A DNA stretch of 64,000 bases, taken from assembly GCF_003003775.1 (NCBI RefSeq), contig NZ_PVWJ01000008.1, positions 1-64,000 of the forward strand, read 5' to 3'. Under the pieces are notes generated by a model. The model did not search any database. It was not told the origin of the DNA and worked only from the letters and a program-made list of their open reading frames with translations. Positions 7,516-57,069 of the stretch are shown piece after piece. The number at the start of each line of letters is the position of its first letter. Within the stretch, counting starts at the first letter, position 1. Made by a program: the position numbers and the translations under genes. The stretch comes from Merismopedia glauca CCAP 1448/3. Lineage in GTDB: Bacteria; Cyanobacteriota; Cyanobacteriia; Cyanobacteriales; CCAP-1448.

Positions 7516-7827
<312 letters not shown>

Positions 7828-7861
7828 TTTCCAATTCCTGTAAATCTTGAATTCTTCCAAT

Positions 7862-50900: not shown

Positions 50901-51346
50901 GTATATGAGGAGTTGATTGAGGAAGCAACCAAACCCGCGATTCAGTACTTCCACGAAATGGCAAGATTTATTAACTTTCTCAGTACTAGGGAAATTACTG
51001 ATAGCTAACAGACTAGTGATATTACTGATAGCCAGCAGATTTTTCTCCAGAATACATCCTGATTTATGCCTATATTTTAGCCATAAACTACATAACAGGC
51101 TAACATATCGAGTTTTAGCATTCGTGTATTTCTATATACAGTTTTTTATTTAAAGATAGCAATGCAAATTCATGGTTATGTACTTTAGTAGCTATTTAAC
51201 CCCTAAAACCCAGTAAATTTGCAAATTTTTACTTAAATCAAGAAATGTTAGTTATACCTATTTTCAGGGAACTATGTAATTCTAGATACAGAAAGGTATC
51301 CTCCCACACCAGTCCCCATTTATCAGCCCCTGACTCAAATAGACTT
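50901..51346. other. 446-bp intergenic region before the transposase-like gene
   Basis: No gene recognised. It contains a near tandem repeat (ATTACTGATAGCTAACAG and ATTACTGATAGCCAGCAG at about 50994 and 51024) and AT-rich sequence. No terminal inverted repeat matching the end of either downstream gene was found. Confidence 0.5.
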
Positions 51347-52507
51347 ATGGTGTCGCCTAAAATAGCCGTTCAGACAGTATCATTCGTAGATGAGTACTGT
51401 GAGGCATATAAAAATATCTTTTCTGAAGTGAGAACTTTCGAGAATTTTAAGTTCTTACATTTGGGAATTATGTCTCAGATTCAGCGCAAATCTTTAACCG
51501 GAATCGCTAAAGCCATTGGTTTGAAAGACTCCCAACCTTTAAATAACTTTCTTAAAAACTCACCTTGGGATGTTCAGGCTTTAAGATTAAAGCGATTGAT
51601 GTGGTTGAAAGACAAGTTAAATAATCGGTCTTTTGTTTTAGTTATTAATGAAATAGGAGATAAAAAGAAGGGTAATACTACTGCTTACGTAGCTAAACAG
51701 TATATTTGTCAATTAGCTAAAACCGAAAATGCCATTGTTTCAATTAATGCTTATGGAGTTTTGGATGGAATTACGTTTCCGCTAATTTTCAAAGTTTTTA
51801 AACCTCAGAACTCACTCAGTTTAAATGAAGAGTATCAGACTAAACCGCAGCTAGCGATCGCTATTATTCAACAACTAAAAGAAATGGGATTCAAGTTCGA
51901 TTTAGTCATAGCCGACAATATCTATACTAAAAATAGTGAATTTCTAGAATTATCAAGTAAATTATCCATCCATCTTTTATTGCCTAATCAAGACTGTAAT
52001 AGTGACACCTTTGTTAGATCGCACAATCGAGTAAATCTAGATATTATTGAGTTACATAAACTTGCTCAAACTAATCAGCGATCGCAAGCAGATTTAGAGC
52101 CGAAAAATCGAGGTATGTTTAAGGAACAGACAGAAATAAAGTCCTCAACTTCAAGTAATTCTACGTGGCATATTAAAGGAGAACGTGAAGCTTCTGAGAG
52201 TTATAAAATGGGAGAAATTTATAACTTTGTTAACTGGGTTGAATACGGTTTTCAACAAGTAAAACAAGAACTAGGATGGGGAGATTTTCGGGTAACTAAC
52301 TACCGTGCTATTGAAAGATGGTGGGAGATAATTTTCAGCGTGTATTGGATGATTAGTTTGCATTCAGATGTGTTTCAAACAGGAAAACAGAATCAATCCC
52401 AAAAATCAATCTTATCTCAACAACAACCTACCTCAATTTCTTCTTTAGAAGAACAAATGATTTGGTATCATCGTTTAGATAACTTACAGTCTATTATCCA
52501 TCTCTAG
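51347..52507 (+). CDS. IS701-type transposase-derived protein, first paralogue
   Basis: 386 residues from ATG 51347. IS701-like features: QTVSFVDEYCEAYKNIFSEV, FLHLGIMSQIQRKSL, LVINEIGDKKKG, AYVAKQYICQLAKTENAIVS, DLVIADNIYTKN and the C-terminal NWVEYGFQQVKQELGWGDFR followed by RWWEIIFSVYWM. The usual first catalytic Asp in (I)DETGD-KKG is Asn here (N101). The second Asp (ADN) and the C-terminal Glu (NWVE) remain. The segment between them is short, Ser/Asn-rich and unlike family members. A gap-free match to the second paralogue over the first 110 residues shows duplication. No inverted repeats or target duplication were found. Confidence 0.8.
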   Translation: MVSPKIAVQTVSFVDEYCEAYKNIFSEVRTFENFKFLHLGIMSQIQRKSLTGIAKAIGLKDSQPLNNFLKNSPWDVQALRLKRLMWLKDKLNNRSFVLVINEIGDKKKGNTTAYVAKQYICQLAKTENAIVSINAYGVLDGITFPLIFKVFKPQNSLSLNEEYQTKPQLAIAIIQQLKEMGFKFDLVIADNIYTKNSEFLELSSKLSIHLLLPNQDCNSDTFVRSHNRVNLDIIELHKLAQTNQRSQADLEPKNRGMFKEQTEIKSSTSSNSTWHIKGEREASESYKMGEIYNFVNWVEYGFQQVKQELGWGDFRVTNYRAIERWWEIIFSVYWMISLHSDVFQTGKQNQSQKSILSQQQPTSISSLEEQMIWYHRLDNLQSIIHL

Positions 52508-52520
52508 GTATCAGCTAATC

Positions 52521-52551
52521 AGCAAATATCAAATCAAATTTGATATTTGCT
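52521..52551 (+). terminator. 14-bp perfect hairpin behind first transposase-like gene
   Basis: AGCAAATATCAAAT / ATTTGATATTTGCT with loop CAA, 14 bp after the stop. Weak T tail (TTCCCTTC). Probable transcript end. Confidence 0.6.
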
Positions 52552-52640
52552 TTCCCTTCACTTAACTAAGAAATTTAGTATTTACGCCAGAGGTCTATTC
52601 AGTAATAACACCGAAAAATTAACCTATCATTTTTTGATTA

Positions 52641-52658
52641 TTCAGCAAATTTGCTGAA
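52641..52658. promoter_or_regulatory. 18-bp perfect palindrome upstream of second transposase-like gene
   Basis: TTCAGCAAATTTGCTGAA, fully self-complementary without a loop, 182 bp before ATG 52840. The form fits a dimeric repressor site rather than a terminator. No cognate regulator is known. It shares AGCAAAT with the terminator arm 100 bp earlier. Confidence 0.4.
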
Positions 52659-52839
52659 GTAATTACTTTTAATATAAGGTATAATTCTCATCTAAAAAGC
52701 TAATTTTTTTTGCGATATAAGTGATTATTTTCAGGCTTTTGGCGTAGGTAAAATCTGAAAATTTCAGTAATTGTACCAGCAATATTCGAGATATTTTTGA
52801 GCAAGATATAAGTTAGATACTTATTTATGGATCTTGCTG

Positions 52840-54066
52840 ATGATTTTACCAAGAATTCCTACAAGGACAGTTTCTTTTGTAGATGACTATTGTCAAGAAT
52901 ATCAAAAAATATTTCCCGAAGTTAGAAGCTACGAAAATTTTAAATTTTTACATATTGGTCTAATTTCGGAACTAACACGAAAATCATTGCCAGAAATTGC
53001 TAAATATGTGGGATTAAAAGATTCTCAATCTCTCAATAATTTTATTAAAAACTCTCCTTGGGACGTTAACTTATTAAGAGAGCAAAGATTATCTCTGTTG
53101 AAAAAGCACTTAGGTAATCGCCGCTTTATTTTAGTAATTAATGAAATTGGCGATAAAAAAAAGGGGAAAACCACAGATTATGTAGCCAAGCAATATATCG
53201 GTCAATTTGGCAAAACTGAAAATGGGATAGTCACCATTAATGCTTATGGAATTCTAGACGGAATGACTTTTCCTTTAATATTCAAAGTATTCAAACCCAA
53301 AAATACTTTACTTGAAGGAGATGATTACCAATCTAAACATGATTTAGCTCTAGGAATTATTAAAAAGTTACTCCAAAGAGGTTTTCAGTTTGATACGGTA
53401 ATTGCAGATAGCGTTTATGGTAGAAACAAAGATTTTCTCCAAGTATTAAATCGCTTATCGCTCAACTTTATTGTACCTCTAAAAATCTCACCTATAAGTA
53501 CGATAGAGACTACGTATAGAGGCTTTTATCATGAAAACTCTCAGAGTATTTTGACAAGCCAGTCTAACTTCTTCAACAACAGAGGTATGAGTCAAGCACA
53601 ACTCAATGGGATTTTCGATCACAAGCACTCTGATGCGTTAATTGAGTACACAGACGATTATATATCTGCTGTGACCAATATTCCAGAATCTATGAGTCAA
53701 AAACTGGCTCATCTGCTAATTTTACTAGCATGGACTGAGTATAAACTCAAAGAAGTGATTAAAGAACTGGGTTGGACTGATTTTCGGATCACTAACTATC
53801 AATCTATTGAAAGGTGGTGGGAAATTGTTTTGAGTGCTTATTCAATGGTGAGTTTACAATCAGATGTCTTTCAAAAAAAATGGCAAATGGACTTATTTGT
53901 ACCACCAGAAACTCAGCTAATGGCAGAATTAGCTAGCCAAAATCGTAGTGGTGATGAAGAAACTATTTGGCAAGAAAGATTGCATAAATTAGTCAAATCA
54001 ATCTCGTTAAATGAAGGACAAAAATCTGCTCATTGGGCGATCGCGGCTGCTTCTAGAAATAACTAA
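52840..54066 (+). CDS. IS701-type transposase-derived protein, second paralogue
   Basis: 408 residues from ATG 52840. It is co-linear with the first paralogue: RTVSFVDDYCQEYQKIFPEV, FILVINEIGDKKKGKTTDYV, KQYIGQFGKTENGIVTINAY, DTVIADSVYGRNKDF, AWTEYKLKEVIKELGWTDFR and RWWEIVLSAYSMVSLQSDVF. The Asn in place of the first catalytic Asp is at the same position (N101). The middle region (about 205-275) is Ser/Asn-rich and differs fully from the other paralogue. The frame is intact with normal stop. It is preceded by 330 bp with a terminator and a palindrome, so it is transcribed separately. Confidence 0.8.
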   Translation: MILPRIPTRTVSFVDDYCQEYQKIFPEVRSYENFKFLHIGLISELTRKSLPEIAKYVGLKDSQSLNNFIKNSPWDVNLLREQRLSLLKKHLGNRRFILVINEIGDKKKGKTTDYVAKQYIGQFGKTENGIVTINAYGILDGMTFPLIFKVFKPKNTLLEGDDYQSKHDLALGIIKKLLQRGFQFDTVIADSVYGRNKDFLQVLNRLSLNFIVPLKISPISTIETTYRGFYHENSQSILTSQSNFFNNRGMSQAQLNGIFDHKHSDALIEYTDDYISAVTNIPESMSQKLAHLLILLAWTEYKLKEVIKELGWTDFRITNYQSIERWWEIVLSAYSMVSLQSDVFQKKWQMDLFVPPETQLMAELASQNRSGDEETIWQERLHKLVKSISLNEGQKSAHWAIAAASRNN

Positions 54067-54095: not shown

Positions 54096-56462
54096 TTAGG
54101 AGTTAGGAATTGAGAAACCGCGACGTGTAGGGGAGAAGTTGGATAATTGTACTTGAAAACTGAGGCGATCGCCATCACTGGTGCTACCCTGGGTTTCATG
54201 CTTCAGATTTCCCCTTCTCACCTCCAAAGTCCAATTACCTGGTTTCATCTCCCAAAAAAGAGAATTAGAAGTATTTTCAGCAATTTTTTGCTGGTTTAGC
54301 CACCATTCAACTGGCTGGCTTGGAGTAGTAGCTAATTTAAATTCTAATCTTGGATTTGTGTCTGAAGACATGAGAAATATATCACCTTGACTGGGTGATA
54401 AAATCTTGAGATTACGAGAAGTGGAATTAGCAGTTTGAGGGGGTGACAATTGTTGTGACTGTAGCCACTCGTTATACTCTGGAGGTAATGAGCCTTTGTC
54501 TAACTGTTGTTCGTAACTCTGGAGATCTGCTACATAAAGATATTCCTGTACAATTGAGGTACAAGCGGAAGTAGGTTTTAAACCCGATAAAGCGCATATG
54601 GGTTTTTGTACCATATCTGTAGGTGGGGGAAAAGCTGTAGGTTCAGCAGACGAGTGTAGGTGTAGCATGATGCGATTCCACAAAGGTGCAGCACCCGTCA
54701 CCCCAGAAACCTGTCGCATGGAATCGCCGTTGAAGTTTCCCACCCAAGTAGCAACAGTATAGTCAGTTGTGAACCCAACAGTCCAAGTATCGCGGAAATT
54801 GGAAGAGGTTCCTGTTTTCACAGCCGTAGGGAAAGGTAAATCTAACACTGAATTTACCCCAAAACTGATACTGCGGGCATGGCGATCGCTTAATATATCT
54901 CTAATTAAACCCCATGTGGGGAGAGAGGGGGAGGAGGGAGATGGTAGAGACGTAGCAGTGCTACGTCTGGGAGAGGGGGAGGTAATAATTGGGATCGATT
55001 TTCCTTGATTGGCTAATGTAGTGTAAGCATGAGCTAATTCCCACAGGGTTACCTCACCGCTACCTAGAGCTAATCCCAGTCCGTAATGTTCGGGATCTTG
55101 GGTTAAATGGGTAAATCCGAGTTCGTGGAGGCGATCTAAAAAGGCTGGTACGCCGACTTTTTCTAAGACGCGCACAGCAGGAACATTCAGAGAATTAGCT
55201 AAAGCAATTCGCACCCGCACGGGACCTAAAAATTTTTCGTTGTAATCTGTGGGATTATAGAGTTTACCGCCAGGAATAGCGTAATAAGTCGGGATATCTG
55301 CCAAGATGGTTTGGGGACGAATTACCTTGTTTTCTAAACCTAACTCGTATAAAAACGGTTTCAGGGTAGATCCAGGTTGACGCAATGCTTGAACTCCATC
55401 GTTACTCCCCAAGTTGGCTTCATCGAAGTAATCGGGAGAACCTGCATAAGCGAGAACTTCTCCTGTATGATTATCAATGACTAAAGCTGCGGCATGATGC
55501 ACGTTGTTGCCCGAAAGCGATCGCACTACCTGTTTGACTTGTCCTTCTACCAATTCTTGTAACGATCGATCTATGGTAGTTTGCACTGTAGCCGCAGAAT
55601 TTCCTTTGGGTAACTGACGAGCCAACCAAAACAGAAAATGGGGTGCAGCAATAATTCCCTGTTGGCGCGACTGGAAAGCAACTTGTTCGCTATAGGCGCG
55701 ATCGCTCTGTTCCTTAGTAATATACCCATCTTCCAGCATTTGATTCAAGACATATTTTTGCCTTTGTTTTAACCGTTCCCAATGGGTGTAAGGATTAAAA
55801 TAAGTCGGATTATTGGGTAATGCAGCTAAGATACTGGCTTGCGCCAAGTTTAGATCCTGCGCTGGTATGGAAAAATAGATTCTCGAAGCCGCTTCTACCC
55901 CGTAAATATTGCCACCCATCGGTAAACGGTTGATATAAGCCGCTAGGATTTCTTCGCGATTCATTCCAGCTACTAGTCGCCAAGATTGCCAAATTTCTGC
56001 GATTTTACCAGTAAGGTTAGGGGAAGTAGGAGATAGCATCCGCGCTAACTGCATCGTAATCGTAGAAGCACCAGAAACTACCTTTTTCTGCTCAATTCCA
56101 TCTTTAATTGCCCTGGCGATCGCCTGTAAATCTATTGCACCATGTTGATAAAATCGTCCATCTTCTGCGGCGATAATGGCTTGAATAAAGTGTGGAGATA
56201 CTCGATCTAAAGGTACTGCTGCTGTATGCTGGTTATCTCTTGTTAGCAGTGTTCCTAATGGTAAACCGTGGCGATCGCTAAATTCAATCGGTTGGATATC
56301 TTGAGCTAGATCGGTAGCGTGAATGGGTGCAAAATAGGGAAGGGATCGGACTATTAAAGCGATCAGCAATACCAATGCGAATAACTTGCCTATTCGCCTG
56401 TATTTAAAATGAAATCTGTGCCAAATTAGGGTGAGCGATGACTTGCGCGATCGAAGTTTCAT
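54096..56462 (-). CDS. pbpC: penicillin-binding protein 1C (bifunctional peptidoglycan synthase)
   Basis: 788 residues from ATG 56462, which shares its A with the stop of the PIN gene (TAATG). Membrane anchor LFALVLLIALIVRSLPYFAP, then glycosyltransferase family 51 motifs IIAAEDGRFYQHGAIDLQAI, VSGASTITMQLARM and LAAYINRLPMGGNIYGVEAA. The transpeptidase has RQPGSTLKPFLYEL (SxxK), NSLNVPAVRVL (SxN) and the KTGTSSNFRDTWTVG motif. A C-terminal beta domain typical of PBP1C follows. A Pro/Ser-rich stretch (SPSPRRSTATSLPSPSSPS) inside the transpeptidase domain is encoded by repeat-like DNA. Confidence 0.92.
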   Translation of the reverse strand: MKLRSRKSSLTLIWHRFHFKYRRIGKLFALVLLIALIVRSLPYFAPIHATDLAQDIQPIEFSDRHGLPLGTLLTRDNQHTAAVPLDRVSPHFIQAIIAAEDGRFYQHGAIDLQAIARAIKDGIEQKKVVSGASTITMQLARMLSPTSPNLTGKIAEIWQSWRLVAGMNREEILAAYINRLPMGGNIYGVEAASRIYFSIPAQDLNLAQASILAALPNNPTYFNPYTHWERLKQRQKYVLNQMLEDGYITKEQSDRAYSEQVAFQSRQQGIIAAPHFLFWLARQLPKGNSAATVQTTIDRSLQELVEGQVKQVVRSLSGNNVHHAAALVIDNHTGEVLAYAGSPDYFDEANLGSNDGVQALRQPGSTLKPFLYELGLENKVIRPQTILADIPTYYAIPGGKLYNPTDYNEKFLGPVRVRIALANSLNVPAVRVLEKVGVPAFLDRLHELGFTHLTQDPEHYGLGLALGSGEVTLWELAHAYTTLANQGKSIPIITSPSPRRSTATSLPSPSSPSLPTWGLIRDILSDRHARSISFGVNSVLDLPFPTAVKTGTSSNFRDTWTVGFTTDYTVATWVGNFNGDSMRQVSGVTGAAPLWNRIMLHLHSSAEPTAFPPPTDMVQKPICALSGLKPTSACTSIVQEYLYVADLQSYEQQLDKGSLPPEYNEWLQSQQLSPPQTANSTSRNLKILSPSQGDIFLMSSDTNPRLEFKLATTPSQPVEWWLNQQKIAENTSNSLFWEMKPGNWTLEVRRGNLKHETQGSTSDGDRLSFQVQLSNFSPTRRGFSIPNS

Positions 56463-56845
56463 TACCACACTCGTTGAATAGAATAAAAATCAAAAGCCAG
56501 ATCCCGACTAATCAAAACTAGGGAATGATTCATTGCTTGTGCGACTAAAATGCGATCAAATGGATCTCGATGATGTAGTGGTAAACAACGAATTTGAACA
56601 GTGTCAGCAAATGCAATGGGCAGAATCGGAATACCTAAAGCATTAATTTGAGGTTCAATGGCTTCAAAATCACCTTTTAGAGATAATTTACTTATACTAA
56701 TTTTGATTGCTATTTCCCAAAGGCTTGCAATACTTAAAAAAACAGCATCAGCAGATTCAATTTTCTGTTTGATTAATATTGGGAGATTTGCATCATCCTC
56801 TAAAAACCAGATCAAAGCATGAGTATCAAGAAGTAGCTGACTCAT
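56462..56845 (-). CDS. vapC: PIN-domain toxin (VapC type)
   Basis: 127 residues. PIN nuclease with acidic residues at LLLDTHALIWFLEDD (first Asp), SIASLWEIAIKI (Glu) and PLHHRDPFDRILVAQA (the D-P-F-D-R motif). VapC toxins cleave RNA, commonly tRNA. The start overlaps the end of the antitoxin gene (4 bp), and its stop overlaps the pbpC start. The D-P-F-D-R variant with HHRD is typical of the cyanobacterial subgroup paired with DUF2281 antitoxins. Confidence 0.9.
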   Translation of the reverse strand: MSQLLLDTHALIWFLEDDANLPILIKQKIESADAVFLSIASLWEIAIKISISKLSLKGDFEAIEPQINALGIPILPIAFADTVQIRCLPLHHRDPFDRILVAQAMNHSLVLISRDLAFDFYSIQRVW

Positions 56846-57069
56846 TCCATATATTCCTTCAGATCCTCAAGCGGTTCATCAAAATCATCAGGAAGCGGTA
56901 ACACAAACATTCCCTTCATTGTTCCCGCTACGCGAAGTTTCTGGGTTGGTTTATCTTGGTTAGAGTTTTTCATGTGCTTTTCTAATAAAAACTCTACATA
57001 ATGCAGAACTTCCGTCTGAAGCGACTCAGGGAGTTCCGCTAACTTTTGTAAAATAACTGGCTGTATCAT
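56842..57069 (-). CDS. DUF2281-type antitoxin
   Basis: 75 residues. N-terminal helices VILQKLAELPESLQTEVLHY with the DUF2281 pattern (L-P-E-x-L-x-x-E-V-L-x-x-V-E-F-L) and an acidic C-terminus (LPDDFDEPLEDLKEYME) that would cover the toxin's active site. It overlaps the PIN gene by 4 bp. Such a short antitoxin usually represses its own operon. Confidence 0.88.
   Translation of the reverse strand: MIQPVILQKLAELPESLQTEVLHYVEFLLEKHMKNSNQDKPTQKLRVAGTMKGMFVLPLPDDFDEPLEDLKEYME

Follow-up and report, generated by a model that had tools for sequence, protein, structure and literature searches.

The window (the whole 64,000-nucleotide stretch of DNA analysed here) is part of contig C8 of a 5.2 Mb genome in 254 contigs, whose relatives are cyanobacteria. 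It carries two paralogous genes, A and B, arranged head to tail with 330 bp between them and flanked by an ORF of 194 aa that has no Pfam match and by a gene for a PBP1C-type transglycosylase/transpeptidase. The features of the pair are:

51347–52507, forward strand: ORF A, IS701-derived protein, 386 aa, NEIG; ATG at 51347, start aligned to that of the Cyanosarcina radialis homologue (L047:8001-9164)
51347–51631, forward strand: N-terminal helical domain of A, residues 1–95; 25/27 family-conserved columns kept
51647–51649, forward strand: Asn101 of A, codon AAT, replacing the first catalytic Asp; part of the predicted strand beta-1 (residues 95–104)
51914–51916, forward strand: D190 of A, second catalytic Asp, kept
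51986–52204, forward strand: degenerate D2-E segment of A, residues 214–286, predicted disordered
52241–52243, forward strand: E299 of A, catalytic Glu, kept; the YREK Arg four residues upstream is replaced by Val
52522–52550, no strand assigned: perfect AT-rich palindrome GCAAATATCAAAT-CAA-ATTTGATATTTGC, 13-bp arms and 3-nt loop, just 3' of the stop of A
about 52840–54066, forward strand: ORF B, paralogue of A, 408 aa, NEIG; ATG at 52840, alternative start TTG at 52834
53140–53142, forward strand: Asn101 of B, codon AAT, in place of the first catalytic Asp
53407–53409, forward strand: second catalytic Asp of B, kept
53485–53673, forward strand: degenerate D2-E segment of B
53737–53739, forward strand: catalytic Glu of B, kept; Y, R and K of YREK all lost

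Both proteins match the whole-protein NF033540 profile of IS701 transposases above its curated cut-off of 150 bits (A, 174 bits; B, 185 bits) as well as Pfam DDE_5, and, like the cyanobacterial DETG subgroup of the IS701 family, they keep the N-terminal helical domain, strands beta-1 to beta-4, the second catalytic Asp, the Glu, and the IERWWE region. A search of solved structures by sequence returned no meaningful match, and Sigma-70 and terminator scans gave signal at or below chance. For B, the TTG start is the less likely one, since 'MILPR' lines up with the beginning of A and with that of the C. radialis protein. Both frames are open, with neither stops nor frameshifts, as an earlier first-pass annotation of this DNA had read them. 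That annotation had proposed a count of copies in the genome and had named many near-identical copies as evidence against domestication; A and B are 48% identical, the only other close relative in the genome is a frameshifted DETG copy on contig C63 (43% identical), contig C57 carries a distant relative, and no recent near-identical copies of A or B were found in the genome.

The motif INEIGDKKKG of A and B reads IDETGD[K/R]KKG in relatives, so that the intact DDE triad is absent from both proteins, with Asn101 in place of the first Asp and the second Asp and Glu present. The first-pass annotation had described the substitution, its position at residue 101 in both proteins, and the remaining ADN/ADS and E positions, and on each point the alignment agrees with it. 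The first catalytic column is Asp in 82 of 86 intact copies, the exceptions being A, B, C. radialis, and one further genome (G056), all four of which encode Asn; in the 83 aligned non-NEIG relatives it is Asp without exception, and an active-looking relative with Asn, which the annotation had considered damaging to its reading, was found in 0/83 of these rows. Position 103 is Thr in 95% of the same 83 relatives and Ile in the NEIG proteins. Of 40 broken copies, 38 keep the Asp and the other two carry Asn, but NEIG occurs in none. The DNA pattern NEIGD[K/Q]KKG, scanned over class and order samples (~719 genomes; 390 and 391, overlapping), occurred only in the window, C. radialis, and G056. Viral contigs gave no match for NEIG, and in a plasmid search scored by identity all IS701 relatives fell below 60% identity except for one record at 60–80%.

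Beyond what was first annotated, the Asp-to-Asn change is accompanied by Thr103 to Ile, by loss of the YREK Arg, and by loss of a C-terminal tail, which, together with the degenerate D2-E segment, set A and B apart from the DETG subgroup. The YREK signature (Y-2-R-3-E-6-K) is mostly present in the cyanobacterial group (Y, 95%; R, 90%), and its Arg is replaced in four of four NEIG proteins (V, L, I, K), with further changes in B (no Y or K), C. radialis (no Y), and G056 (Asp instead of Glu). It does not define the IS701 family as such, since the Tyr was found in only 4 of 27 IS701 elements in a wider sample (PMC2266710). The tail of active relatives (~50 aa) is absent from all four NEIG proteins, and A and the C. 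radialis protein have an identical end point.

Active relatives have ends of the form CCCTCTT(T/C)TGTCACT and 4-bp target duplications. The IS701 end sequence is CCCTCTTTTGTCACTCTCCG, and multi-copy relatives have ends of type CCCTCTTTTGTCACT, CCCTCTTCCATC or CCCTGATCTGTCA, located 357–399 nt 5' of the motif and about 10–83 nt 3' of the stop, and their target duplications, for example TTAA, are 4 bp long. A profile built from such ends recovered both at C63 and one full and one partial end at G056, the two positive controls, but neither end around A, B or the C. radialis gene (p = 0.20–0.59 around A and B); no 4-bp target site duplication was found for A/B, where element ends are not definable. 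The flanking inverted repeats that the first-pass annotation reported missing, and which together with target duplications it had named as evidence against its reading, are therefore absent at the pair, and A and B differ from IS701 mobile elements in having no terminal repeats, target duplication or recent copies. Upstream of A, TTATACCTATTTT at 51252 resembles the TTATCCCTCTTTT of the sister group by eye, but no residual repeat is claimed because the profile test was not significant (p = 0.56). A separate element, TATTTAACCCCT, is common to the regions upstream of A (about 51194–51205) and of its C. radialis homologue (L047, about 7820–7832), 140–180 bp 5' of the start codon in both, and may represent either a regulatory site common to the two genes or a remnant of the left end. 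The frameshifted DETG copy on C63 (13871–14934, locus L161), with both terminal repeats present, has disrupted a gene whose product looks, by eye, like a nuclease of the staphylococcal-nuclease type.

The family of the window organism is sampled by two genomes only, that of the organism itself and that of C. radialis, a member of another genus, which has an intact, single-copy NEIG gene. In a tree of 91 proteins, A and B group with the C. radialis protein in a single clade (SH-aLRT 100), and by parsimony their common ancestor would already have been NEIG. The G056 protein stays in a separate clade with the motif masked, and a single old NEIG clade was rejected (AU p = 0.009), giving a minimum of two changes. 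NEIG thus appears to have arisen a second time, independently, in the genus of G056. This second lineage goes beyond the first-pass annotation, which had recommended a comparison of NEIG and DETG homologues; in the alignment all non-NEIG proteins have Asp. Two of its genes, L189:6901-8145 (G449, DEIG) and L160:8115-9341 (G056, NEIG), have intact frames and are truncated and YREK-deficient. Within the genus, G463 has DETG, both ends, and a full tail, while G449 has DEIG, the left end only, a truncated tail, and no Arg. Together with G056, these three genes suggest the order Thr to Ile, then Asp to Asn. Single changes also occur in broken copies (NETG in L036 and L044; DEIG in L187 and L188), and the broken DEIG copies indicate that Thr to Ile alone can be plain decay. 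For the G056-G449 pair omega was 0.19–0.40, below 1 in every region, so the second lineage looks younger or less constrained.

Selection was assessed region by region, with codon models fitted to each pair of the A, B, and C. radialis genes. Over the N-terminal 215 residues (residues 3–217) omega was 0.03–0.07 (2dlnL against omega = 1, 125–170), over residues 281–392 it was 0.13–0.29, and in the D2-E segment, where identity among the three falls to 9–13%, omega = 1 was not rejected; synonymous sites are saturated and the omega values rough, so that reliance is placed on the contrast between regions and not on exact values. That contrast is steep. Identity across the N-terminal half is 61–67%, and DETG control pairs with similar N-terminal identity retain 55–75% identity in the D2-E segment. 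The NEIG proteins keep 25–27 of 27 conserved columns in the N-terminal 95 residues but 1–4 of 13 in the D2-E segment, which is the only neutral-looking part of A and B. In a neutral simulation, 2.5% of frames were open at 0.05 substitutions per site and 0/400 at 0.1. As the D2-E segment could drift so far only once catalysis had become irrelevant, constraint on the rest would have persisted after its loss, and the codon models indicate strong purifying selection on the N-terminal 215 residues since A, B, and C. radialis split. The dN/dS comparison put forward by the first-pass annotation thus comes out in favour of selection on the pair, and the conserved N-terminal half beside a drifting D2-E segment adds to what it had seen. 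It had described the inter-catalytic region as Ser/Asn-rich and wholly different between the copies: the enrichment is mild (23% against 14–16% overall), and identity between A and B there is indeed 9%.

AlphaFold models, made for A and B alone, show a confident N-terminal helical domain, beta-1 with Asn101, beta-2 to beta-4, and C-terminal helices. Confidence is low in the D2-E segment (A, residues 214–286, pLDDT about 25–45; B, residues 222–266), which may partly reflect a shallow alignment. Among the fold matches of the A model, Tn5 transposase ranks first.

The window pair lies beside the PBP1C-type gene and the C. radialis gene between proB and hisA; no conserved genomic position was found between the two, nor any neighbour gene common to the window, C. 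radialis, G056, and G449, and with the positions differing there is no conserved neighbourhood pointing to function. The palindrome at 52522–52550 folds well above shuffles (z = -4.6) and is possibly a terminator or an operator; as a repeated binding site it was rejected, being present in a single copy in the genome. Elsewhere in the window, at 56462–57069 on the reverse strand, a DUF2281 gene precedes a PIN-domain gene and the two overlap at their ends, a toxin-antitoxin-like arrangement.

A and B are probably domesticated, catalytically dead, and non-mobile IS701 transposases, which would retain the recognition half and neither cut nor join DNA; their most likely nature is that of non-cutting, DNA-binding remnants. 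Two marks of domestication were found: open frames under purifying selection after the loss of mobility and an intact homologue in another genus. The proposal of the first-pass annotation, a domesticated DNA-binding protein rather than an active element, stands in part, with domestication borne out by the lost Asp, purifying selection, missing repeats, two copies, the homologue in another genus, and the lack of an active-looking relative with Asn, and DNA binding as a probable activity; none of the observations that it had named as refuting was made. The first catalytic Asp, the YREK Arg, the C-terminal tail, and the terminal repeats have been lost and the D2-E segment has collapsed, while the N-terminal DNA-recognition half, the early RNase H-like core strands, and the C-terminal helices are kept. 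In the proposed mechanism, the proteins, probably dimeric, would still bind DNA but no longer cut it. Their target would be either sequences akin to IS701 ends or a new site in the host genome, and they may act by site occupancy. If IS701 ends are still recognised, transposases would be blocked in trans; if specificity has shifted, A and B would be host regulators.

The DNA-recognition half is almost unchanged, which makes a block of transposition and the regulation of host genes the best two candidate roles, with about equal odds between blocking incoming IS701-type elements and acting on host genes. Tentatively, the proteins may be dominant-negative inhibitors that occupy IS701 ends and obstruct active transposases, either through titration or by forming mixed dimers. 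The N-terminal half is nearly that of active relatives, the recurrent origin fits an arms race, the remaining close copy in the window genome is frameshifted, and the matches listed for the four genomes that carry a NEIG or DEIG gene (G000, G001, G056, G449) include no other full-length intact close copy; four genomes are, however, too small a sample for statistics, and active copies are also missing from many genomes that have neither NEIG nor DEIG genes. With the same reserve, A and B can be read as proteins that have acquired new binding sites and regulate host transcription or act in the manner of nucleoid proteins, consistent with the loss of the element's own ends, the divergence of the paralogues, and the retention of the recognition half with the C-terminal helices, but without conserved gene neighbours or a repeated binding site, the palindrome being unique.

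It is unlikely that A and B are decaying IS copies, recently dead with frames open by chance. Their degenerate D2-E segment, the missing tail, and the single D-to-N or T-to-I changes in the broken NETG and DEIG copies would suit decay, but a near-random D2-E segment alongside an N-terminal half at 61–67% identity and omega of 0.03–0.07 requires that selection went on once the loss had occurred, frames in the neutral simulation are broken very soon, and NEIG is absent from all 40 broken copies. It is very improbable that A and B are active transposases whose altered site uses Asn or the neighbouring Glu in place of Asp: A, B, and C. radialis do retain the second Asp and the Glu, and the GDKKKG context is kept, but the DDE motif is reported to be perfectly conserved in IS4-related families including IS701 (PMC2266710), the YREK Arg, tail, D2-E segment, and ends are lost as well, and there are no recent copies.

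As probable domesticated dead transposases, A and B can be set beside several known systems. They share the RNase H-like DDE fold with the Tn5/IS50 transposase. The Tn5/IS50 inhibitor, a non-catalytic transposase variant, establishes the principle that such a variant can inhibit transposition; it has no N-terminus and is encoded by the same element, whereas A and B retain theirs and stand as genes of their own, outside any element. Eukaryotes offer well-known examples of catalytically dead, domesticated DDE transposases, and bacteria have dead TnpB repressors; no described case of a dead, retained transposase from IS701 was found among the papers searched. TldR proteins are repressors that derive from TnpB of IS200/IS605 and IS607 elements and are dead as nucleases; they arose several times (PMC13418256) and resemble A and B in that an IS-encoded protein repeatedly and independently lost its catalytic site with the binding part retained (PMC13418256). 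In contrast, TnpB carries a RuvC domain and works as an RNA-guided nuclease, A and B derive from a DDE transposase, family searches with A and B gave DDE_5/IS701 and not TnpB, and neither a guide RNA nor a conserved partner gene was seen at A/B. By analogy, TldR is the closest bacterial precedent.

More speculatively, cyanobacteria may have repeatedly made IS701 transposases into protective proteins that silence incoming element ends, by an ordered route shared across origins in which Thr to Ile, Arg loss, and tail truncation precede Asp to Asn; both parts, taken jointly, are doubtful. If true, they would amount to a host-encoded anti-transposon defence by dead transposases binding incoming ends. 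Two independent origins would share the same active-site change, with DETG, DEIG, and NEIG side by side in one genus, and the conserved recognition half against the drifting D2-E segment shows which part has been kept by selection. The DETG/DEIG/NEIG series opens the path from a mobile enzyme to a retained binding protein to direct test.
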